Under the pieces are notes generated by a model. The model searched no databases. It saw only the letters and a list, made by a program, of their open reading frames with translations, and was not told where the DNA came from. The position numbers and the translations under genes are program-made. Below are positions 22,450 through 60,432 of a stretch of 64,000 nt of DNA, in pieces. The stretch is from Limosilactobacillus pontis (GTDB lineage: Bacteria; Bacillota; Bacilli; Lactobacillales; Lactobacillaceae), in NCBI RefSeq assembly GCF_002940945.1, contig NZ_PNFV01000007.1:1267-65266 (forward strand), in the 5' to 3' direction. The first letter of the stretch is position 1, and each line of letters begins with the position of its first letter.

Positions 22450-23139
22450 TTAGCGAGTCTGGTGATCAAGCTTCTTGGCGATGAGGTCACCAACTACTTG
22501 AATAATCAGGACAAGCAGCAATACGAGCAGGGTAGCAACCAGGGTTACATCGTTGTTGAAGCGGTTGTACCCGTAAGAAATGGCGGTGTTCCCCAGGCCA
22601 CCAGCACCGATAGCGCCGGCCATGGCAGTCAGGCCTACCAGGCTGATCAAGGTCACTGTGGAGACCCTGGTTAGTTCAGACCGGGCCTCGCGTAGGTAAA
22701 CATCCACGATGATGTCCCAGTTGGTTGCGCCGATGGCCTCAGCCGCTTCGACCTTACCGTGATCAACACTTTCTAGGGCGACCTGAACCTGCCGGGCGTA
22801 GAAGCCGAACACACCGATGGTCAGTGGGACCAGGGCTGCAGTCGTTCCAATCTGGGTCCCAACCAGCAGCTGGGTGAATGGAGCGATGAAGGCCAACAGG
22901 ATGATAAACGGGATGGCCCGGAAGATTGATACAATTTTATCACAGACGTTAAACCAAAATCTATTCTCAAGAATACCACCGGGTTCGGTGATTACCAGGG
23001 CGACCCCGAAGAGGAGACCGAGGATGCCACCAAATATTGCTGGCCAGAAGGTCATGTAGATGGTCTGAATGATTGAGGTTCCCCAACCGTTGTCACCACC
23101 CCAGCCGAGCTGAATTACGTTTGGTAAAAGATTACTCAT
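22450..23139 (-). CDS. metI: Methionine ABC transporter permease MetI
   Basis: A 229-residue inner-membrane permease with five spans and the EAA loop ([23 protein letters not shown] shortened here to its core, [10 protein letters not shown]). It resembles MetI/MetP proteins, with [15 protein letters not shown] near the end. ATG 23139 (MSNLLPN) is chosen because aggagg stands seven bases before it; the longer frame from 23157 begins inside that site. The start overlaps the metN stop by eight bases, so the two are translationally coupled. Confidence 0.93.
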
Positions 23140-24196
23140 TCCAAATCCTCCTATCATTAATCTTAGTTACGGTTACGTTGCTTTGCTTAAGGAAGTCGAC
23201 AGCCTGGTCACGTTGGGCCTGGTCGCCCTTGACGATGATGAACAGGGTACCGACCGGCTGCCCACTGAGGACCTCGACGTTCCCATAGAGGATACTGGCC
23301 TCGACATTGAGACGTTTGTAGAGCTCAACGATGATTGACTGGGTCACGTTGTTGCCGTTGTAGACCAGCTGGAAGAGTTCTTCGTTATCGTTGAGGTGGT
23401 CAAGGTTGAAGGACTTAAGGGTATCGATAGCAGCCAGGGAGCCACCAACAAACTGCCGGGTCAATTCTTCCTTCGGTCGCAGGAAGACGTCCTGGAGAGC
23501 GCCTTTTTCGATGACTTTACCGTGTTCCATCACGGCGATCTTGTTGGCTACCCGTTTGACGGCGTCCATTTCGTGAGTGATTAAGACAACGGTCAGGCCG
23601 ATTTTCTGATTGAGACTCTTCAAGAGGTCGAGAATTTGGTTGGTGTTCTGGGGATCCAGGGCCGAGGTGGCCTCGTCGGAGATCAGAATCTGCGGGTCGT
23701 TGGCTAGCGCCCGGGCGATTGAAACCCGTTGCTGTTCACCGCCGGAGAGCTGAACGGGGTAGAATTCGGCCTTATCCTTCAAGCCGACCAGGTCGAGCAG
23801 CTCCAAGGCCTTCTTCTCCTGAGCATCGCTGTCGAGGTTACTGTGCTTAAGGGCAAAGAGAACATTTTCAATCACCGAGGTTTCGTTGAGCAGGTTGAAG
23901 TGTTGGAAGATCATACCGATCTTACGACGCTTATTCTGTAATTCCTTATTAGAAACCTGCTGATGGTGGTCACTGAAGAAGGTGTCGCCAGCGACGATCA
24001 CCGTCCCATCCGTTGGCTTTTGCAGGAGGTTAATCGTTCGTACTAATGTTGACTTTCCAGCCCCGGAGTAACCGACGATTCCGTAAATATCGCCGGGTTG
24101 AATTTCGAGGGAGACGTCTTGAACGGCGCGAACCACCTTTTTACCCTGCTTAAAGGTTACATTAATATTTTGTAGGTTAATGATTGGGTCTGCCAT
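23132..24196 (-). CDS. metN: Methionine ABC transporter ATPase MetN
   Basis: A 354-residue ATPase: Walker [11 protein letters not shown]-loop IFQHFNLL, signature LSGGEQQR, Walker [15 protein letters not shown]-loop LITHE. The C-terminal 90 residues form a NIL domain, which binds methionine to trans-inhibit transport ([24 protein letters not shown]). Its length equals that of known MetN. It sits 14 bases after metQ and overlaps metI. Regulation is by the methionine T-box upstream of metQ. Confidence 0.96.
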
Positions 24197-24210
24197 ACAA
24201 AGTCCTCCTA

Positions 24211-25062
24211 TTACTTATTGAAGTTCAGGTCCCAGGCTGGTAATTCAGCGGTGCCATAGTGCTTCTTGATGAATTGCTTCGTCTTTTCGGTCTGGTATGC
24301 TTTGACCACGTCTTGGTAGGTCTTCTTGTCCTTGTTGCTCTTCTTGGCAGCAATGATGTTGACCCACTGTTCGGAATCCTTGTTGATTGGTTCAACAAAA
24401 ATAGCGGATTTGTAGTTGATTCCAGCGGCTTGGGCATAGTTGGTGTTGACCACCGCAGCGTCGACGTCTTTCAGGGAACGAGCGGTTTGTTCAGCGGCTA
24501 ATTCCTTGAATTGGATGTGCTTAGGGTTCTTGGCAACAGAATTAGCACTAGCCAGGGTTGTTCCCTTCTTGAGGGTGATCAATCCGGCGTTCTTCAGGGC
24601 GAAGAGGGCCCGTGATTCGTTGGTGGCGTCGTTCGGTACGGCAACCGTGGCGTTGTCGGGCAGGTCCTTCAAGTTCTTGTACTTGTTGGAGTAGACTCGA
24701 ATAGGGGTGATGTAGGTATCACCGACGGACACGATGTCAGTGTGGTGTGCCTTGTTCCAGCTTTTTAAGAAAAGCTTGTGCTGGAAGGCGTTTAGGTCAA
24801 TGTCACCATTCTGCAGGGCCTTATTTGGCTGATTGTAGTCAGTGAAGTCCTTGGTCTTAACTGTGACGTGGTACTTATCCTTGGCGGTCTTGGCAACAGA
24901 TTGCCATAGCTTGGCCTCGTTCTTGTCCCCGGACATGATCCCGACGGTTACCGTCCGTTGGCTCTCCTGACGGGGCCGAACAAAGCTGAAGTAGCCGGCA
25001 ATGATAACCAGGATGGCGACAACCACCCAGATGATTGTTCTTTTCTTCTTTCGATTCCGCAT
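24211..25062 (-). CDS. metQ: Methionine-binding protein MetQ (NlpA family)
   Basis: A 283-residue substrate-binding protein. A basic start and a hydrophobic segment ([19 protein letters not shown]) form an uncleaved membrane anchor; there is no lipobox cysteine, unlike most NlpA-family members. The NlpA fold follows with [32 protein letters not shown] and [15 protein letters not shown]. It binds methionine at the cell surface for MetNI. First gene of the operon, with a gaaagggag site, 60 bases below the T-box terminator. Confidence 0.93.
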
Positions 25063-25124: not shown

Positions 25125-25409
25125 AAAAAAGCACCCGTCCCTTAAACTAAAGGACGAGTGCTTCGTGTTACCACCTTTATTCGCTGGACCGTCACCGACC
25201 CAGCCTCAGTAGGTTACTCTAACCTCAGTTAGAATTACCTAGCACGAATAACGTGTGCTAACCCGTTACTGGCTAATCACGATCGCCAGTACCATTCCAA
25301 GCCCATCTTCGGCAACGACACCTGCTCCTTCACACCAGCCAGAAGCTCTCTTGAAGGTTTAGTTGCTTACTCTGCTTTTCGATATGTTTAACTTTGATTA
25401 ATTGATTAT
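25125..25409 (-). promoter_or_regulatory. T-box leader, methionine specific (metQNI operon)
   Basis: On the minus strand the leader contains the stem I distal signature agagagcttctggctggtg (25338-25356), the T-box itself aaaggtggtaacacgaag and, directly after it, the terminator aagcactcgtcctt...aagggacgggtgctttttt (25125-25163). Uncharged tRNA would pair with the T-box and favour readthrough. Two ATG triplets are candidate specifiers (minus strand 25306-25304 and 25295-25293); both fit methionine and the operon beneath. Confidence 0.88.
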
Positions 25410-51290: not shown

Positions 51291-52130
51291 TTAGTTGTGG
51301 GCGTTGAATACCTTCTGGGCGCCCGGCAGCTTGAAGGTGTTTTCGTAGAGGTACTTGTTGGTCAGTTTCTCCAAGTAGCCATCGTCATGAAGCTTCTTGA
51401 GTTCCTTGTTCATTGCCTGAGTCAGCTTCTTATTGGCTGGGCTTTTGTGAAGGAGGAAGTAGGAGCTCTCTAGGCCGATTGACTTGGAGGCAGTCAGGTT
51501 CTTGCCGGCCGCGGTTGTCTGAACGGACTTGTAGGCAGCGTACGGGTAGACAGCGACATCGTACTTTCCTGAGGCAACCTGTTTAAGGGCATCTCCAGTT
51601 GTTTGGTCACCGATTCCCTTGAGGTTGAGCTTGTTGTTAGGGTGCTGCTGGTTGTAGTTCTCAAGCAGGCTGTAGCGAGCGTCACTGGTTGAGACCGGAA
51701 CCACTGTCAGCTTCTTCTTAGCTACCTCAGCTAGGGAGTTGGCTTTCTTGCCGTTCTTACGTTCCACCAGGCGAAGATCATCGAGACCATTTGCCCTGGT
51801 GTGGTAGTAGTTGTTGAAACGCTGCTTGCTGTACCAGAAGTTAGACATGGCAACGTCATATTTGCCAGATTGGAGACCGGCGAAGACTGCATTTTGGGAT
51901 GTGAAGGTGGTCTTGAATTTGTACTGCGGCAAATCATGGTCAATCTTCTTGATCAGGGCACCGTAGTAACCACTGGCCCCGTGGTCGGTGTTGATGATGT
52001 AGGGTGAGTTGCCGTTTGGGGCGGCAACGGTAACGGTTCTGGCAGCAGAAGCGGAAGTGGTGGCAGTAGAAAGGCCGAGAATGGTCAAGCCAGCAAGGGC
52101 GGCCCGGCTAAAGAAATGGGATAATTGCAT
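51291..52130 (-). CDS. Amino-acid ABC transporter substrate-binding protein
   Basis: A 279-residue family 3 solute-binding protein. The signal peptide ends in TTSASAA with no lipobox cysteine, so the mature protein is not lipid-anchored in the usual way. The ligand domain shows SGYYGALIKKIDHDLPQ, GLQSGKYDVAMSNFWYSKQR and VASGKYDVAVYPYAAY. It is the last gene of an operon with two permeases, an ATPase and a zinc methyltransferase. Substrate probably a sulfur amino acid (cystine, methionine or a relative), inferred from context. Confidence 0.88.
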   Translation of the reverse strand: MQLSHFFSRAALAGLTILGLSTATTSASAARTVTVAAPNGNSPYIINTDHGASGYYGALIKKIDHDLPQYKFKTTFTSQNAVFAGLQSGKYDVAMSNFWYSKQRFNNYYHTRANGLDDLRLVERKNGKKANSLAEVAKKKLTVVPVSTSDARYSLLENYNQQHPNNKLNLKGIGDQTTGDALKQVASGKYDVAVYPYAAYKSVQTTAAGKNLTASKSIGLESSYFLLHKSPANKKLTQAMNKELKKLHDDGYLEKLTNKYLYENTFKLPGAQKVFNAHN

Positions 52131-52157: not shown

Positions 52158-52856
52158 TTAGTTGAGAACATAACGACGACGAAGCTGGCTTTCGATCAAT
52201 TGGAAGATCTTGGCAAAAATCCAGCAGATAATGATGTAGATAATTAGGGCATCGGTGTAAGTTTCCAGGTACTTAAAGCCGATCGAGGAAACGATATTGG
52301 CCTGCCCCATGATCTCCACCAGCCCAATATTGTAAATCAGGGCGGTATCCTTGATCAGATCAAGAAAGATGTTGGTAAAATTGGGGATTAGGTTGGTAAT
52401 TAGCTGTGGAATCACGATCTGGGTCATGGTCTTAAATGGTGTCATTCCGACCGCGATCCCTGCCTCATACTGGCGGTGGTCCACCGAATGGTAGGCCGAT
52501 CGGATACTCTCTGAGAGGGTAGCCATTGCGTTCAGTCCATAAGCGGAGAAGACGATGACAATGGCAGGAAGGCCATCAGGATTGGTGTTCCAACCCCAGC
52601 TACGCATCAGAACCAAAAGCTGTGGCAAACCGTAGTAGACCACGTAGAGTTGGACCAGGATCGGGGTTCCCCGGATGAAGGAGACCAGGACGGTCAGAAT
52701 CTGGGCGAGGACGGGGATCTTCTTCTCGCGGGCAATAGCGACCAGAATTGCTAAGATCAGCCCGCCCAGGGTGGCTACCACTGCGACTAAGAGGGTGAGC
52801 GGAGCAGCGGCCAGAATCTGGCCGAACGACTCACGGGCAAAGTTTAGATCAAACAA
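52158..52856 (-). CDS. Amino-acid ABC transporter permease 1 (TcyL/HisM type)
   Basis: A 232-residue permease with five helices and the EAA loop QYEAGIAVGMTPFKTMTQIVIPQ (key part EAGIAVGMTP). FIRGTPILVQLYVVYYGLPQ is the hallmark of polar amino-acid permeases. The start is TTG 52856, eight bases after aaaggagg; there is no ATG or GTG in frame nearby. It pairs with the next permease as a heterodimer. Confidence 0.9.
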   Translation of the reverse strand: MFDLNFARESFGQILAAAPLTLLVAVVATLGGLILAILVAIAREKKIPVLAQILTVLVSFIRGTPILVQLYVVYYGLPQLLVLMRSWGWNTNPDGLPAIVIVFSAYGLNAMATLSESIRSAYHSVDHRQYEAGIAVGMTPFKTMTQIVIPQLITNLIPNFTNIFLDLIKDTALIYNIGLVEIMGQANIVSSIGFKYLETYTDALIIYIIICWIFAKIFQLIESQLRRRYVLN

Positions 52857-52875: not shown

Positions 52876-53547
52876 TTAGGCACGGATAGCGGCGAAGCGG
52901 TTTTTGATTAAGTAGAAGAAACCTTCGATGATCAAGACGATAACCCAGTAGGTGAGGGCCAGCAGGATGAAGATCCGTAGCTGATGGATCCCCGCCGTCT
53001 GGTTAGATAGGTTAGAAGCCTCGTTATATAAGTCGTATAGACCGAGCACGTAGACCAGCGAGGTGGCCTTGACCAAGCCGATAACCAGGTTCTCGATGTT
53101 TGGCAGGGCGATCATTGCGGCCTGGGGGATCAGGATTTGCCAGAAGGTGGTTCGATCTGGCAGGCCGATTGATCGGGCGGCTTCCAGTTGACTGGGATCC
53201 ACGGACAGGTAAGCACTGCGAAAGGCCTCGGCTAGGTAAGCACTCCAGCCCAGCGAAAGACCGAGGACACCAAAGGTTAGCTTTGTCCAGCCATCGATGT
53301 TGATACCGATACCTTTTAAGAGGACTGGCAACCCGTAATAGGCCAGAAGCAGCATCAATAGGGGCGGGGTCCCCCGGATCAGACCAAGGTAGATGTTGGC
53401 TACACCTCGGGCAGCTTGGTTTTGTCGAAGGCCTAGCCAGGCGAGGAGAATTCCCAGGATAGTTGCGAACATAAATGAGAGGATCAGCAAGTAAAGAGTG
53501 TTGGGTAATCCGCGGAGGATGATATCGATAATCTTAGCGTTATTCAT
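52876..53547 (-). CDS. Amino-acid ABC transporter permease 2 (TcyM/HisQ type)
   Basis: A 223-residue permease: LRQNQAARGVANIYLGLIRGTPPLLMLLLAYYGLP followed by an EAA loop (LEAARSIGLPDRTTFWQILIPQA). Five helices are predicted. The ATG has an aaggaggcga site. It lies between the first permease gene and the ATPase gene, with spacings of 14 to 20 bases, as in one operon. Confidence 0.9.
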   Translation of the reverse strand: MNNAKIIDIILRGLPNTLYLLILSFMFATILGILLAWLGLRQNQAARGVANIYLGLIRGTPPLLMLLLAYYGLPVLLKGIGINIDGWTKLTFGVLGLSLGWSAYLAEAFRSAYLSVDPSQLEAARSIGLPDRTTFWQILIPQAAMIALPNIENLVIGLVKATSLVYVLGLYDLYNEASNLSNQTAGIHQLRIFILLALTYWVIVLIIEGFFYLIKNRFAAIRA

Positions 53548-53561
53548 TAGACCTCGCCTCC

Positions 53562-54305
53562 TTAGTTGGCGTTACTGAGGGCGGTAAGGAATTGGGCTGT
53601 CCGTTTGTTCTGTGGGTGGTCGAACAATTCCTGCGGGGCTCCCTCTTCAATGATCTTTCCTTCATCGAAGAAGACGATTCGGTCAGCAACCTGGCGGGCA
53701 AAGCCAAGCTGGTGGGTGACAATGATCATTGTCTGGCCTGCCTCTGCCAGCTTGCGCATGTCGCCGAGGACAGAACCAACCAGCTCGGGATCAAGGGCGG
53801 AGGTTGGCTCATCGAAAAGGATGATTTCCGGGTTTAGAACCGTTGCCCGAGCGATACCGATCCGCTGCTGCTGACCACCGGATAACTGGGCGGGATAAAG
53901 CTGGAACTGCTGGCTGAGCCCCAGGCTGGCCAGTTCCTGTTCGGCAATGGCGTTCGCCTGATTCTTAGTCATTCCCTGGGCATATATCAGCCCCTCGGTA
54001 ATGTTTTGCAAGGCTGTTTTGTTCTTGAAAAGACTGTAGTTTTGAAAGACCATTGCGGAATGGCGTCGGACCCACTGAACCTCTTTTTTAGCCGGTTTGT
54101 CCAGGTTAATCTGGTGACCAGCAAAGTCCATCTGTCCACGGTCGGCGTGTTCCAGGAAGTTGAGATTGCGCAGGAAGGTTGTCTTTCCAGAACCAGACGG
54201 ACCGATCATGACGACGATCTCACCCTTGTCGATTTGGAAGTCGATCCCCTTGAGGATTTTCCGACCATTGAATGATTTATGCAAGTCGTTAACAGTTAGT
54301 AGCAA
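53562..54305 (-). CDS. Amino-acid ABC transporter ATPase (TcyN/GlnQ type)
   Basis: A 247-residue ATPase: Walker A GPSGSGKTT, Q-loop FQNYSLF, signature LSGGQQQR, Walker B ILFDEPTSALDPE, H-loop VTHQ. I place the start at TTG 54305 (then LLTVNDLHKSFNG), which has a gaggagg site seven bases upstream; the longer frame to 54404 would run into the methyltransferase gene. The gene starts 14 bases after that gene's stop. Confidence 0.92.
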   Translation of the reverse strand: MLLTVNDLHKSFNGRKILKGIDFQIDKGEIVVMIGPSGSGKTTFLRNLNFLEHADRGQMDFAGHQINLDKPAKKEVQWVRRHSAMVFQNYSLFKNKTALQNITEGLIYAQGMTKNQANAIAEQELASLGLSQQFQLYPAQLSGGQQQRIGIARATVLNPEIILFDEPTSALDPELVGSVLGDMRKLAEAGQTMIIVTHQLGFARQVADRIVFFDEGKIIEEGAPQELFDHPQNKRTAQFLTALSNAN

Positions 54306-54318
54306 GATGATGCCTCCT

Positions 54319-55329
54319 CTAGTTGTGTGCTGCCTCGATGGCCCAGCGTAGGTGGTCGTAGTTGATATCACGCGGTACCGTGCAATCAGCGCCGAGCAGG
54401 ACACCCTTTTTACCGGCTTCAGCGATTAGGGAATGGACCTTCTCTTGGATCTGCTGCTTTGTTCCGCTGTACAGGATCCCCTTGGTGCTGTTGTCAAAGC
54501 CGCCCATCACTGGTCGGTCGCCGAAGAGCTTCTTGCCCGCAGCCAGGGTATAGCCATCGGTCTCAGTGGCCCAATTGATTACCTGCAAGGGATAATTAAC
54601 GAACCAATCCAGGTGGTTGTCGGCGCCGTCAAAACCACAGATGTGCAGGATGTTGAGCGGGGAGACGGCATTGATAGCATTCTGGACGTCGATGTCGACC
54701 GGCTCCATCACCTCCGTGAAGAACCTTGGCGTCTGGGTACGCTCATCCTGAATTTCCTGGGTGCTGTAGTAGATCCCGTCAATGTTGGAACCAGCCATCA
54801 GGGCTCGGGCAACTTTCTTCTGGTCGTCACTGATCACCTTCAAAACGTGGAGGATCAGTTGAGGATCCTGCTCATACATATCGGCAAAACGTTTGTCCGC
54901 TAGCAGGAGAGGCTCCTGATAGTGTTCAATCAGCGCCCACTTCAAGAGGAAGAGCGGGGAGAACATGGTAACGAAGGTTGGCCGGTCACCAGCAATTCGC
55001 TTTTGTTGTTTAGCTAGGGCCACCTGTCCAGTCAGCCAGGGGTCATTATCTGCAATTGGCCGCAGGTTGTGGAGGTCGACCAAGTTCTTGGGGTCCTTGA
55101 CCCCGGGAAACGGGTAAGGAAAATAACCGTCGAGCATTGTCTTGGCGAAGTCGACGTCCACGGCCTGGTAATAGTTGCGGTGGCCGGTCAGGTTGGTATC
55201 TAGAACACTGGAATCCGTGGCCGCGTTGGTGAACTCGTTATCGGCGAAGTGGCGCCAGAACGACGCTGGAACCTGATCGACGTTCTCGTTGTGCAGGGCT
55301 TTTAGAACAGTTTCACGATGCAAAGTCAT
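54319..55329 (-). CDS. Zinc methyltransferase of the MtaA/HemE (UROD) fold
   Basis: A 336-residue member of the uroporphyrinogen decarboxylase superfamily. It has His229-X-Cys231 (ILHICGFDG) and Cys316 (GADCTVP), the H-x-C...C zinc ligands of corrinoid-dependent methyltransferases such as MtaA, MtbA and CmuA, and not the paired Arg/Asp of haem decarboxylases. It should move a methyl group to or from a thiol through zinc. It heads an amino-acid ABC operon, so it may demethylate an imported S-methyl compound or methylate homocysteine. No corrinoid protein is seen nearby. A gaaagagtgat site precedes the ATG. Confidence 0.82.
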   Translation of the reverse strand: MTLHRETVLKALHNENVDQVPASFWRHFADNEFTNAATDSSVLDTNLTGHRNYYQAVDVDFAKTMLDGYFPYPFPGVKDPKNLVDLHNLRPIADNDPWLTGQVALAKQQKRIAGDRPTFVTMFSPLFLLKWALIEHYQEPLLLADKRFADMYEQDPQLILHVLKVISDDQKKVARALMAGSNIDGIYYSTQEIQDERTQTPRFFTEVMEPVDIDVQNAINAVSPLNILHICGFDGADNHLDWFVNYPLQVINWATETDGYTLAAGKKLFGDRPVMGGFDNSTKGILYSGTKQQIQEKVHSLIAEAGKKGVLLGADCTVPRDINYDHLRWAIEAAHN

Positions 55330-55351
55330 AAATAATCACTCTTTCTTTGGA

Positions 55352-55391
55352 TACAAAAACGCCACCGATCACGTGACATGATCGGTGGCGT
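55352..55391 (-). terminator. Attenuator-type terminator before the methyltransferase-ABC operon
   Basis: On the minus strand a perfect 13-bp stem acgccaccgatca/tgatcggtggcgt with a seven-base loop is followed by tttttgt. It stands between the leader peptide and the first structural gene, 23 bases before its ATG, so transcription of the operon must pass it. Confidence 0.9.
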
Positions 55392-55427
55392 CTGCCTATT
55401 TTATGCGGGATTTTCTGTGAGGAAAGT

Positions 55428-55499
55428 AAAAAAGTCAACCTCAAAGAAAACGGCCAGCTGAACTCATGTCAGTTTGTCCGAATGTACTTGAAGGTTGAC
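55428..55499 (-). promoter_or_regulatory. Leader hairpin overlapping the Cys codons
   Basis: On the minus strand gtcaacct (55499-55492), at codons 12-14 of the leader next to the Cys pair, is complementary to aggttgac (55441-55434), directly after the leader stop codon. Six T follow (55433-55428). A ribosome paused on the Cys codons would keep this hairpin from forming. Confidence 0.6.
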
Positions 55500-55533
55500 A
55501 ACAAATAGCAGACATAACAGTAATCATTAACAT
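55441..55533 (-). CDS. Leader peptide with tandem Cys codons
   Basis: A 30-codon frame beginning MLMITVMSAICCQPSS, with an ideal aaaggag site eight bases upstream and a consensus promoter 30 bases further on. Codons 11 and 12 are both TGT. It ends at TGA 55443-55441. Peptide leaders of this type let ribosome pausing on a scarce aminoacyl-tRNA decide if transcription continues; here Cys is the likely signal. It has no recognised homologue as a protein. Confidence 0.65.
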   Translation of the reverse strand: MLMITVMSAICCQPSSTFGQTDMSSAGRFL

Positions 55534-55564
55534 GGGCTCAGCTCCTTTCAAACTTGATGCTTGT

Positions 55565-55594
55565 ATTCTAAGCTAATGTGTCGACGTTTGTCAA
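55565..55594 (-). promoter_or_regulatory. Promoter of the leader-methyltransferase-ABC operon
   Basis: On the minus strand a consensus -35 ttgaca (55594-55589) and -10 tagaat (55570-55565), spacing 18. Confidence 0.75.
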
Positions 55595-55624
55595 CAAATT
55601 TTTACTAATCTTTTGTTAGCAAAA

Positions 55625-55655
55625 CAAAAAAGCCCCACCAGATGCGGAGCCTTGG
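55625..55655 (-). terminator. Terminator of the 39-residue protein gene
   Basis: On the minus strand aaggctcc pairs with ggggctt (with a T-G pair) and is followed by tttttt, 13 bases after the stop codon. Confidence 0.65.
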
Positions 55656-55667
55656 ACGTTACGTTAA

Positions 55668-55787
55668 TTATTCGAAGAAGACGACCTTGCCATCCACCTT
55701 GAATGGTAATGCCACTGAACCCTTTGGGTGGCCATCCTTCTTAAAGTGACGTGTTACGTTACGAATTACATTAGTGTTTAGTAGCAT
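55668..55787 (-). CDS. 39-residue basic microprotein
   Basis: The frame encodes MLLNTNVIRNVTRHFKKDG, a Pro/Gly/Val middle and the end KVDGKVVFFE. It has a gaagggag site eight bases before the ATG and a hairpin terminator after the stop. It is soluble, net basic in its first half and has no Cys. No family is recognised. The clean gene signals make it a likely real gene. Confidence 0.62.
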   Translation of the reverse strand: MLLNTNVIRNVTRHFKKDGHPKGSVALPFKVDGKVVFFE

Positions 55788-56095
55788 TGTGATCGCTCCC
55801 TTCCTTGTTATTCAATTGTAAAATATCATGTTTTTTTGGACATTTACAGTTAAAAATCCCAGTCTAAGAAAGTCTCTCATCTTTGTCCAGACCAAACCTG
55901 TATAATTTGCGTACGCCAACCATGATACTTGTATAAATGGTACTAAATAGGCCCTGAGAAGTGCTCAAATGATGAATATAAATTTATTTTCCTGTGAATA
56001 AGAATTTAATAAGCAAAACGCTGTGACTTTTCTTCTTTTTGATTGCAATGTCAGCGGGTGGCCTTTAGGATAGAAACGAAGATGGAGGGATTACC

Positions 56096-56944
56096 ATGAA
56101 AATAACCATTGGCCTGACGACCTGGACCGAGCACCCGGCCCTGATCAAAAACGAACAGCGACCAGTAACCCTGAATGAGTATGCTCAGCACCTGCCGGTC
56201 GTGGAGGTGGATACCTTCTTTTACGCGCTCCCACAGGTGACTACCATTCAGAACTGGCTGGCCCAGGTGCCAGAGTCGTTTCAGTTCATCGTAAAGGCCC
56301 ACCGGGGGATGACCCTTCATGAACGTGGTCAGGAGAAGGGGGAACTCGAACAGCTTTTCAACCGTTACAAGCAGACAGTGGCGCCACTGGTAGCGGCTGG
56401 TCAGCTGAAAGCGGTACTCTTCCAGTTTCCACCATACTTTGACGCCTCGCCCGCTGATATTGAGTATCTGCGTCTGGTTCGTCTTTGGATGGGTAAACTT
56501 CCGGTGGCGATTGAGCTACGCAACCAGACCTGGTATCGGCCCGGAACATTGAAGTCCCTGCTGGCCTTCTGCCAGGAGCTTCACTTTACACTGGTGGCCG
56601 CCGATGAGCCCCATGGCATTGTTGCCTCGGTGCCTTTTGTTCTGGCGACGACTAACCCGGACTTGGTAATGATGCGTCTGCATGGTCAGAATACAGCGGG
56701 TTGGATCAACCAGGGAAAGAGCTGGCGCAAGACGCGGACCCTATATAAATACTCTTCAGCTGAGCTGGCGGCTTTTTGTGACCAGATCAAGCAGCTGACC
56801 CCGCAGCCGGCGGAACTCTGCGTTATCTTTAATAATAACTCGGGCAAGGACGCGGCCCCCAACGCCTTACAGCTGCAGCAGATGCTGGGCGTTCATTTTA
56901 CCGGTCTAGCCCCGCATTCACCTGAGCAGATTGACCTGTTTTAG
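56096..56944 (+). CDS. DUF72-family protein (YecE/YunF-like)
   Basis: A 282-residue TIM-barrel-like protein of DUF72: start ITIGLTTWTEHP, then VEVDTFFYALP, FIVKAHRGMTLHE, LFQFPPYF, VAIELRNQTWY and a late MMRLHGQNTAGW. The function of the family is unknown, though it is widespread. ATG 56096 has a gatggaggga site. About 300 bases before it hold no gene. Monocistronic. Confidence 0.9.
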   Translation: MKITIGLTTWTEHPALIKNEQRPVTLNEYAQHLPVVEVDTFFYALPQVTTIQNWLAQVPESFQFIVKAHRGMTLHERGQEKGELEQLFNRYKQTVAPLVAAGQLKAVLFQFPPYFDASPADIEYLRLVRLWMGKLPVAIELRNQTWYRPGTLKSLLAFCQELHFTLVAADEPHGIVASVPFVLATTNPDLVMMRLHGQNTAGWINQGKSWRKTRTLYKYSSAELAAFCDQIKQLTPQPAELCVIFNNNSGKDAAPNALQLQQMLGVHFTGLAPHSPEQIDLF

Positions 56945-56965
56945 CCTGGCGGCGGGCGGCTAATA

Positions 56966-56974
56966 TGCTATACT
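56966..56974 (+). promoter_or_regulatory. Extended -10 promoter of metG
   Basis: tgctatact is a TGn-extended -10 with one base off consensus, 47 bases before the metG ATG. No clear -35 is seen, as is common for extended -10 promoters. Confidence 0.5.
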
Positions 56975-57006
56975 AAAATATAAAACTAATTTTAGAAATT
57001 CATTAG

Positions 57007-59052
<2,046 letters not shown>

Positions 59053-59063
59053 AGCGGCATACG

Positions 59064-59879
59064 ATGAGCAAGCACGCAAGCTGGCGGCAGGTCTATGACT
59101 CGCACACCCACCTGAACGATGGTCCTTTCTATGATGACGTCGCCGCCTTCATCGCCCGGGCTGATCATTATGGGGTCACGGTAATGAACATCGTCGGTTC
59201 CAACAGGCAGCTGAACGACCGGGCGATCGAACTGGGACATCGTTATCCTAATCTCCACCCAGTTGTTGGCTGGCACCCGGAGGACCTGGCGACTTTCAAT
59301 GAAGCAGAGATGGCCCACTTGAAGGCTCAGCTGAATGATCCGGTTGTGGTGGGGGTTGGCGAGATTGGACTAGATTATTATAATGATCAACACTCGCCCC
59401 ACGACCAGCAGTGGGCATTGTTTGAAAAGCAACTCCAGTGGGCACGTGAGCTGAACCTGCCAGTCTCGATTCACTGCCGGGATGCCCTAGAAGACACTTA
59501 CGCGATCCTGAAGAATGCTCACCTGGATGAATTTGGCGGGGTTATGCATAGTTTCAGCGGTAGTCCGGAATGGGCAGCCAAGTTCATGGAATTAGGAATG
59601 GCAATTTCCTTCAGTGGGGTGGTCAGCTTCAAAAATGCGGCCTCTGTCCATGCTGCTGCCCTGGCGACGCCGTTGGACCGGATGATGGTGGAGACTGATG
59701 CCCCTTACCTGACCCCAAAGCCATACCGAGGGAAACAAAATGAACCAGCCTTTACCAAGTTCGTAGTTGACGCCATTGCTGAACTGAAGGGTGTTGATGC
59801 GGAACGGGTGGCCTACCATACCTACCACAACGCCACCCGATTATTTCTTAAGAATGGGGTACAAGATGAGCAAGATTAA
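59064..59879 (+). CDS. tatD: TatD-family metal-dependent DNase
   Basis: A 271-residue TIM-barrel hydrolase. Metal ligands are in DSHTHLN (HxH), GEIGLDYY (Glu), SIHCRDA (His), GVMHSFSG (His) and VETDAPYL (Asp). TatD proteins act as 3'-5' exonucleases or deacylases of nucleic-acid repair. The ATG lies eleven bases after the metG stop without a strong ribosome site, so coupling is likely. It overlaps rnmV by 14 bases. Confidence 0.94.
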   Translation: MSKHASWRQVYDSHTHLNDGPFYDDVAAFIARADHYGVTVMNIVGSNRQLNDRAIELGHRYPNLHPVVGWHPEDLATFNEAEMAHLKAQLNDPVVVGVGEIGLDYYNDQHSPHDQQWALFEKQLQWARELNLPVSIHCRDALEDTYAILKNAHLDEFGGVMHSFSGSPEWAAKFMELGMAISFSGVVSFKNAASVHAAALATPLDRMMVETDAPYLTPKPYRGKQNEPAFTKFVVDAIAELKGVDAERVAYHTYHNATRLFLKNGVQDEQD

Positions 59880-60432
59880 AGAAGTCATTGTTGTCGAGGG
59901 CAAGGATGATACCAAGCAGATTCATAAGGCAGTTGATGCCGATACCTATGAGACCAATGGATCAGCCCTGTCGGATATTGACCTGGTTCGATTGAAAAAA
60001 CTCCAGGCTAGCCGGGGATTGATTATCTTCACCGATCCGGACTTCAACGGGGAACGGCTGCGTAAGATGATCAGTGCTGCCGTCCCGGGAGTAAAACACG
60101 CATTCATTCGGCGTGACCAGGGGGTGCCAGACGAGGCCCATGGCAGTCTGGGAGTGGAGCATGCCACCCCGGCCACTATCAAGGCCGCCCTTGCCCATCT
60201 CTATACCCAAAAAAGTGAACCACCGGTTGCCCCCTTTAAGATTCAGGACCTGCAGGCCGCCGGGCTGACGGGAAACCCGCACGCGCGATACCGGCGGGAA
60301 CGTCTGGGGGCTATCCTGGGGATCGGTTATGGTAATGGCAAGCAATTGGTTCACCGGTTGAATATGTTTCAGATCACGCCTGCACAATTTAAGCAGGCCA
60401 TGGCAAAGATTAAGCAGGAGGAAAATGGATGA
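59866..60432 (+). CDS. rnmV: Ribonuclease M5
   Basis: A 188-residue Toprim nuclease that matures 5S rRNA with ribosomal protein L18. The Toprim motifs are VVEGKDD (8-14) and [13 protein letters not shown]. The C-terminal half ([25 protein letters not shown]) is typical. I chose ATG 59866 ([12 protein letters not shown]), preceded by ggggtacaag, over an upstream ATG at 59791 within tatD. The stop overlaps the rsmA start (atga). Confidence 0.95.

Follow-up and report, generated by a model that had tools for sequence, protein, structure and literature searches.

The short open reading frame (ORF) with tandem cysteine codons that precedes a methyltransferase-transporter operon in Limosilactobacillus pontis is very probably a cysteine-responsive, ribosome-mediated transcription attenuator and a member of a class of leaders by which Limosilactobacillus controls a cysteine/sulfur regulon. 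It lies on the minus strand of the 64-kb stretch of DNA that we analysed, here called the window, where the promoter, the ribosome site and the 30-codon ORF with TGT TGT at codons 11-12 were all found between 55594 and 55358, as the initial annotation had described them. The elements of the locus are the following.

55565..55594, minus strand: promoter TTGACA-18-TAGAAT, 11 of 12 consensus matches
55542..55548, minus strand: Shine-Dalgarno (SD) sequence of the leader, AAAGGAG, 8 nt ahead of the ATG at 55533
55525..55549, minus strand: segment S1 (SD and start codon), partner of S2 according to pairing energies and alignment A4
55441..55533, minus strand: leader ORF, 30 codons and TGA, MLMITVMSAICCQPSSTFGQTDMSSAGRFL, conserved in relatives
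55498..55503, minus strand: control codons TGT TGT (Cys 11-12), the last Cys codon lying 28 nt before segment S2
55492..55499, minus strand: segment A5, GTCAACCT, 5' strand of helix A, beginning within the last Cys codon
55436..55472, minus strand: segment S2 (CTGACATGAGTTCAGCTGGCC..., codons T-D-M-S-S-A-G-R...), putative antiterminator strand and also partner of S1
55434..55441, minus strand: segment A3, AGGTTGAC, 3' strand of helix A, complementary to A5, with TTTTTT next to it
55358..55392, minus strand: intrinsic terminator S3:S4, a fold of 16 pairs at -27.5 kcal/mol, then the T-run TTTGT

The leader promoter is the top one of 10 promoter-like sites in 53000-60000, where shuffled sequences average 5.9 sites, and by sequence a short SD-preceded ORF is present between it and the first gene. 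On both strands of the window this leader is the sole ORF between 12 and 45 aa long that combines an SD-like motif with CC or CxC, the Cys background being 93 of 14,396 residues (ORFs of at least 250 aa). No Rfam family matches it at gathering score, T-box RF00230 included. The two segments that had been noted as an 8-bp complement between codons 12-14 and the bases after the stop codon (55499-55492 and 55441-55434) are indeed complementary; the 13-bp terminator before the first structural gene is also there, with 13 perfect pairs in 55392-55358 and a fold that extends to 16, and the ATG of the methyltransferase at 55329 (minus strand) comes just past it. Another ORF of 39 aa, MLLNTNVIRNVTRHFKKDGHPKGSVALPFKVDGKVVFFE, with a good SD and a terminator behind, occurs just upstream of the leader promoter (window 55787-55668, minus strand), and near-identical copies of it were seen at L001, L002 and L004 among five loci inspected.

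The operon behind the leader consists of the following genes.

54319..55329, minus strand: URO-D family (PF01208) methyltransferase-like protein, 336 aa
53562..54404, minus strand: amino-acid ABC transporter ATPase, best NCBIfam match TcyN, below its cut-off
52876..53547, minus strand: ABC permease, best match cystine permease PRK15100, below cut-off
52158..52856, minus strand: ABC permease, best match cystine permease PRK15100, below cut-off
51291..52130, minus strand: solute-binding protein (SBP), SBP_bac_3

Residues H229, C231 and C316 of the methyltransferase are invariant across 17 aligned sequences. Since the transporter scores fall below the NCBIfam cut-offs of the cystine models, cystine is not a proved substrate of the ABC system.

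Relatives of the methyltransferase were collected at 70 loci in species-representative genomes. In the genus itself, 14 of 50 Limosilactobacillus genomes carry 16 such genes, and a site of our leader RNA model R1 stands just before each of the 16, a match that is partly by construction, most of these leaders or near copies of them having built R1. With E<=0.01 the model finds 29 sites in 20 of the 50 genomes, three of these sites being weak antisense matches on the core. The class discussed below comprises 27 leaders in 16 groups; outside it were left L004, L005 and L008 (near-identical or duplicate), repeat sites in L071-L078, L080-L085, L090-L103, L110 and L111, where L074 and L077 are T-box loci, as well as L130 and leaders outside the T-D-M class.

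Cys codons are conserved in all 27 leaders, at least two of them in 15 of the 16 groups and one in the L. mucosae group. The last Cys codon lies 24-39 nt from the leader ATG and 22 or 28 nt before S2 in 26 leaders (21 nt in the frameshifted L112), and this placement is kept while the peptides vary at the N-terminus and between Cys and T-D-M. C-terminal residues (motif T-D-M-x-S-V-G) are strikingly similar across groups. A terminator with a T-run follows the leader in 27 of 27 cases, with energies from -16.4 to -28.0 kcal/mol, and upstream of all 27 the best promoter-like pair, scored with no shuffle control, agrees with the consensus at 9-11 of 12 positions, 31-47 nt ahead of the leader ATG.

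The methyltransferase-transporter operon, which the initial annotation had assigned to the leader, is confirmed as a target, but it is only one of several, since 10 of the 27 class leaders precede other genes. In L104 these are metA-like and cysK genes, CysK scoring above a curated cut-off (TIGR01139); in L105-L108, cystine-type ABC operons, with the SBPs of L121 and L123 scanned and the rest named by likeness; in L112 and L117, cystine-type SBP genes; in L109, genes of the M20 amidohydrolase, metQ and metN types; and in L113, a metQ/nlpA-type lipoprotein gene. The ABC, MetQ and MetN names at these targets stand for best matches that stay under the cut-off. Behind the leader and terminator of L114 comes a sequence which we take to be group-II-intron-like, and presumably the same kind of sequence follows the T-D-M leader and terminator of L127 (G033:C1:1362902 on), at the place where its near copy L109 has the operon. 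The methyltransferase and leader of L089 are borne on a plasmid (L. mucosae, NZ_CP058955), where the annotation shows no ABC transporter genes less than 5 kb away.

In a search for spread beyond the genus, R1 matched in 10 of 349 Lactobacillaceae genomes, nine of which were also in the genus search, and the match in G248 (L119) was rejected as a chance one. Among 345 Lactobacillales genomes, model R2 had a single strong site, in G003, and four weak ones, L135-L138; at these weak sites no Cys leader was seen, L137 having only an antisense ORF with two scattered Cys. In these family and order runs 10 candidates per genome were scored under strict filters, and divergent cases could be missed. Among five weak R2 matches in a draw of 37 genus genomes, L130 proved to be a leader, and L131-L134 were rejected (L133 is short). 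In this divergent leader, which a metA-like gene follows, S2 is altered (CCGAACGG) and the terminator loop (CCGGTTCGG) fits the altered sequence, as judged by eye with no statistic; the metA-like gene behind it (G016:C3:59007-59769) was matched as two overlapping pieces, with an in-frame TGA in the first. From the Streptococcus homologues (among L020-L057), L020, L034, L035 and L046 were scanned for short Cys ORFs, and one was found with CxC in L034, overlapping a longer ORF in another frame.

The leader RNA has four pairings: S1:S2, A5:A3 (helix A), S2:S3 (S3 being the 5' arm of the terminator) and S3:S4. Over the 16 groups, the mean duplex energy of A5:A3 is -16.0 kcal/mol for cognate and -10.0 kcal/mol for non-cognate strands (0 of 20,000 permutations as low), and that of S1:S2 is -19.6 against -16.6 kcal/mol (0 of 20,000); S2:S3, with -18.1 against -16.8 kcal/mol and 346 of 20,000 permutations, is the weakest of these tests, all of which treat the groups as independent; part of the cognate advantage may come from base composition that the strands share. 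The cognate partner is the best one in its own row in 7, 3 and 0 of 16 groups for A5:A3, S1:S2 and S2:S3, respectively, and with the first eight groups only the corresponding permutation counts are 2, 530 and 294 of 20,000, the tests of S1:S2 and S2:S3 being limited by the conservation of S2. When 42-nt leader stretches were compared as partners of the terminator 5' arm, S2 came first in seven of eight group representatives and fell short of the first by no more than 0.1 kcal/mol in the remaining one, L012. Shuffled S2 did as well in 17, 0, 2, 0, 27, 40, 64 and 7 of 300 trials for these eight, and the single leaders L086 (64/300) and L009 (40/300) are not convincing alone.

Covariation measures are mixed. 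In alignment A4 (27 rows), which was fitted to the model and hence leans to it, 88.6% of the S1:S2 cells are paired, against 26-39% when one strand is slid, and 30 cells are changed on both sides, against 10.2 in shuffles (0 of 500 as high), with the number of pairs showing both-side change (5 against 3.6) staying within shuffles (91 of 500). The unfitted alignment A2 gives 12 both-side cells against 6.3 for S1:S2; shuffles reached the number of pairs with a both-side change in 356 of 500 trials and the number of further pair types in all 500, and neither measure rises above them there.

Helix A, the complement of codons 12-14 and the post-stop bases, is kept by compensatory change, with bases that differ between groups and one exception, L007, where a changed stop codon breaks it (-5.3 kcal/mol). 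L007 apart, the start of the helix ranges from 8 nt upstream to 5 nt downstream of the first base in the last Cys codon, and a fixed register was rejected, the longest ungapped helix giving registers of 6 to 15. Because the register slides, the MAFFT columns of A2 misalign helix A, and for this reason the cognate and non-cognate duplex energies were used instead. The run of six T that had been noted behind the 8-bp helix is present in the window but is no general feature: at least five T within 3 nt after helix A occur in 3 of 16 groups (pontis-like, L086 and L109/L114), and a reading of the helix with its T-run as an early terminator was rejected as general on this count. The broken helix in L007, together with the mixed covariation measures, slightly lowers our confidence in the attenuator reading.

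The core of the ribosome-mediated layout proposed in the initial annotation is supported by these data, but the 8-bp helix is not the antiterminator, and the S1:S2:S3 pairing system, the one able to act on the terminator, had been missed. The two conservation checks that it named, on the Cys codons and on the complement of codons 12-14 with the post-stop bases, both went its way. According to the mechanism that we suggest, RNA polymerase would start about 25 nt before the short ORF and stop at S3:S4, before the operon, and S2 (codons T-D-M-x-S, inside the ORF) would pair either with S1 or with S3. In untranslated RNA the S1:S2 pairing would form, S3 would be left free and transcription would be terminated. 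With ample Cys-tRNA the ribosome would clear the Cys codons, and helix A would hold S2/A3, which would again lead to termination. Under cysteine shortage a ribosome stalled on the Cys codons would cover A5, either this ribosome or one queued behind it would keep S1 away, and S2, staying free during the stall, would pair with S3, so that the operon would be read. Because of the order of synthesis helix A can form before S3 exists, and we infer a kinetic role for it, in which it would win before S3 is made.

Folding was run for 18 of the 27 leaders (near copies left out), with the RNA ending at the terminator loop. An antiterminator of at least four pairs was predicted in none of the 18 free leaders, and again in none of them when a ribosome sat on the last Cys codon and S1 was left uncovered, where S1:S2 persists, which is why the model needs S1 to be blocked; with a ribosome on the last or the first Cys codon and S1 covered it was predicted in 17 of 18. 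The mean number of expected S2:S3 pairs is 0.35 in free leaders, 0.22 with the ribosome on the last Cys codon only, and 9.69 with S1 also covered, so that folding predicts the switch to the antiterminator on condition that S1 is blocked. With S1 covered, the antiterminator was predicted in 4 of 18 leaders for a ribosome six codons past the last Cys, in 12 of 18 for no stall at all, and in 11 of 18 for a ribosome at the stop codon; in view of the last two counts, equilibrium folding alone does not explain repression during active translation.

Cysteine and methionine had both been considered as the sensed amino acid in the initial annotation, and it is cysteine that the comparison favours. Stalling at Met codons, in an operon that makes or imports methionine, would be in agreement with the four Met codons of the window leader, with the Met residues that flank Cys in several leaders (CMC, MCMC, MCNCM), with the MetQ/MetN-type neighbours of some class members, and with the T-boxes whose specifier is read as AUG and which stand before the same methyltransferase gene in Loigolactobacillus, Lentilactobacillus and Paucilactobacillus (L013, L018 and L062 reach the Rfam threshold; L015, L016 and L017, the last of these from a Lactobacillaceae bin, were read by eye only). 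Met codons near the control site are, however, not universal, many leaders having none there (AICCQP, FNCCQT, ECCACT, VCCCT, FCCCT, CCTCT, TCCCCT), as against Cys in 27 of 27; the Met of T-D-M sits in S2 and is lost in L086, where V replaces it, and, by frame, in L112; the leader class also precedes the cysteine-synthase operon with cysK; and the window's own metQ/metN-like operon (23132-25062, genes named by likeness) has an AUG-specifier T-box upstream instead (25147-25391, minus strand), the sole T-box match of the window at gathering score. On these grounds we consider methionine sensing improbable, and in the L. pontis genome methionine uptake seems to be under a T-box, with a Cys leader at the methyltransferase operon. 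Genes named by likeness again, the methyltransferase is followed by ABC genes in L015, L017, L018 and partly L013, while L062 and Phascolarctobacterium L059 have the two in a different order. The same gene type in Phascolarctobacterium (L059 and L060) has an unrelated Cys-rich leader, MRQYALAANNIMCKMQAQEMCCSCCAQFYM (..MCCSCCAQFYM), some 200 nt ahead of it, with a terminator, seen by eye, before the methyltransferase; two ORFs which we take to be PLP-enzyme-like come after in L059.

The similarity of the C-terminal residues might also be taken as a sign that the peptide itself acts, as an arrest peptide or a trans-acting small protein with T-D-M-x-S-V-G, rather than the codons and the RNA. We find this highly improbable, as the same bases serve as partners of S1 and S3, and L112 keeps the S2 bases but reads them outside the T-D-M frame (MKSLNQAMICMCTPAKSELTWFQLGIFGYIN); on these two observations peptide-level conservation was rejected as the driver. 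In addition, L086 ends early, and six leader peptides gave no NCBIfam match at E<=10 and a single Pfam match with E 0.11, below the cut-off. An action on translation of the first gene, or by some route other than a ribosome stalled ahead of a transcription terminator, would agree with the ability of S2 to sequester the leader's own SD, and with the metA-like leaders ending in CC or CCC, described below, which often come without a strong terminator (of 23 metA-like leaders in all, 14 have one of -9 kcal/mol or lower). The terminator with its T-run in every class member, and a terminator in 24 of 24 cystine-type ABC loci, speak against it and make it quite improbable for the T-D-M class, for which we retain attenuation of transcription by a ribosome stalled at Cys codons.

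Relatives of the cystine-type SBP in L123 occur in 24 of the 50 genus genomes, and all 24 cystine-type ABC operons are preceded by a short SD-preceded ORF with CC or CxC, four of them of the T-D-M class, and by a terminator of -13.8 to -29.1 kcal/mol. Further Cys-rich leaders, such as MLNNVMPNEFCSACCVVCNKLFGVIKIQ, stand at L193-L212, and the last codons of L193, L195 and L205, AAATTCAG, match the terminator loop (CTGAATTT or CTGGATTT). A terminator-complementary segment exceeds shuffles (at most 4 of 60 as good) in these three of the 16 non-T-D-M leaders compared, four near copies being left out, and shows no excess over shuffles in the other 13. The metA-like genes (39 matches in 35 of 50 genomes, with the loci of 30 examined in addition to L130) have a short ORF with CC or CxC in 25 of 30 cases with no SD rule applied, one being T-D-M (L139), and in 23 of 30 with the SD rule. 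Among those with no leader ORF, L146, L166 and L167 lie, in our own reading, directly behind another gene; the others are L141 and L168. At L140-L165 the ORFs mostly end with CC or CCC right before the stop codon, for example MLKITNSIHPWSTSCCC, about 100-240 nt upstream; these leaders are a second Cys leader type, whose action is possibly translational. As a control, a CC/CxC leader ORF occurs at 5 of 65 other gene starts, two of the five being the methyltransferase leader itself; the control starts are mechanical ORF starts from nine loci around the methyltransferase rather than a random draw. Taken together, we think it likely that Limosilactobacillus as a genus uses the translation of Cys-codon leader peptides to sense cysteine throughout its sulfur regulon (metA/cysE-like-cysK, cystine-type ABC, metQ-type and URO-D methyltransferase operons), in at least three architectures: the T-D-M class, CSACCVVCNKLFGVIKIQ-like leaders before cystine-type ABC operons, and the CC/CCC-ending leaders before metA-like genes.

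This kind of attenuator is already known. Among the papers listed by our literature search, the reach of which lay mostly outside subscription papers, none showed a Cys leader, or a regulon of such leaders, in Lactobacillaceae. In the trp leader a short ORF has its control codons at the 5' strand of a helix, and the antiterminator is exclusive with the terminator. The L. pontis leader shares the short ORF and the placement of its control codons with the classical trp and his attenuators, has a putative antiterminator that would likewise exclude the terminator, and differs from them in its Cys codons, in the position of S2 inside the ORF, where it also pairs with the leader's own SD and start codon, and in the separate sliding helix A. 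Trp, His, Thr and Leu leaders are listed as Rfam families in the accessible part of PMC3766115, and T-boxes and Rfam leaders are treated in what is accessible of it and of PMC2494555. The uORFC-8-2 motif, compared by its description in the available portion of PMC8632094, has an upstream ORF with tandem Cys codons (usually 14-15) in the first stem and a terminator; it belongs to alpha-proteobacteria (Rhodobacterales), stands only before cysS and uses mainly UGC, in contrast to the several operons, mostly UGU codons and S1:S2/S2:S3 switch found here. In Actinobacteria, including mycobacteria, Cys codons occur in a short ORF before cysteine genes, the Cys run lying near the stop codon with no conserved terminator, as far as the accessible text of Seliverstov 2005 (PMC1262725) goes, and the accessible text of PMC13236596 cites Canestrari 2020 on mycobacterial Cys-codon leaders. 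Unlike the mycobacterial ones, the window leader has an SD, its Cys at codons 11-12 of 30 and a strong terminator. The ORFs of the more recent mycobacterial work are reportedly leaderless. It is the CC/CCC-ending metA-like leaders that look more like those of Actinobacteria. Leader-peptide attenuation in Firmicutes is also represented by the Leu leader of S. aureus ilvD and the His leader of Bacillus hisS/hisZ (PMC5794164 and PMC2965389, in their accessible parts), with other amino acids and genes. The Cys and Met T-boxes of lactobacilli, described for L. paracasei in the accessible part of PMC6004538, which gives no hint of regulation before cysE-cysK, have similar metabolic targets and likewise control transcription by tRNA charging; in our case there is no T-box match at the leader, and codons in an ORF would be the sensor.

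Amino-acid control in Firmicutes has mostly been told as a story of T-boxes and repressors. The methyltransferase-transporter operon has a Met T-box in sister genera, a Cys leader here and an unrelated Cys leader in Phascolarctobacterium, and the leaders would provide clues to the function of the URO-D-type methyltransferase and of unassigned ABC transporters, while the RNA models R1 and R2 can be used to find further members. If our reading is true, a coding segment of the T-D-M class would double as a brake on translation from its own start and as an antiterminator, and Cys leaders would stand in for the T-boxes that precede the methyltransferase operon in sister genera. A genus widespread in gut and food that controls its cysteine regulon through leader peptides would then offer a clear case of RNA sensor replacement on the same operon.
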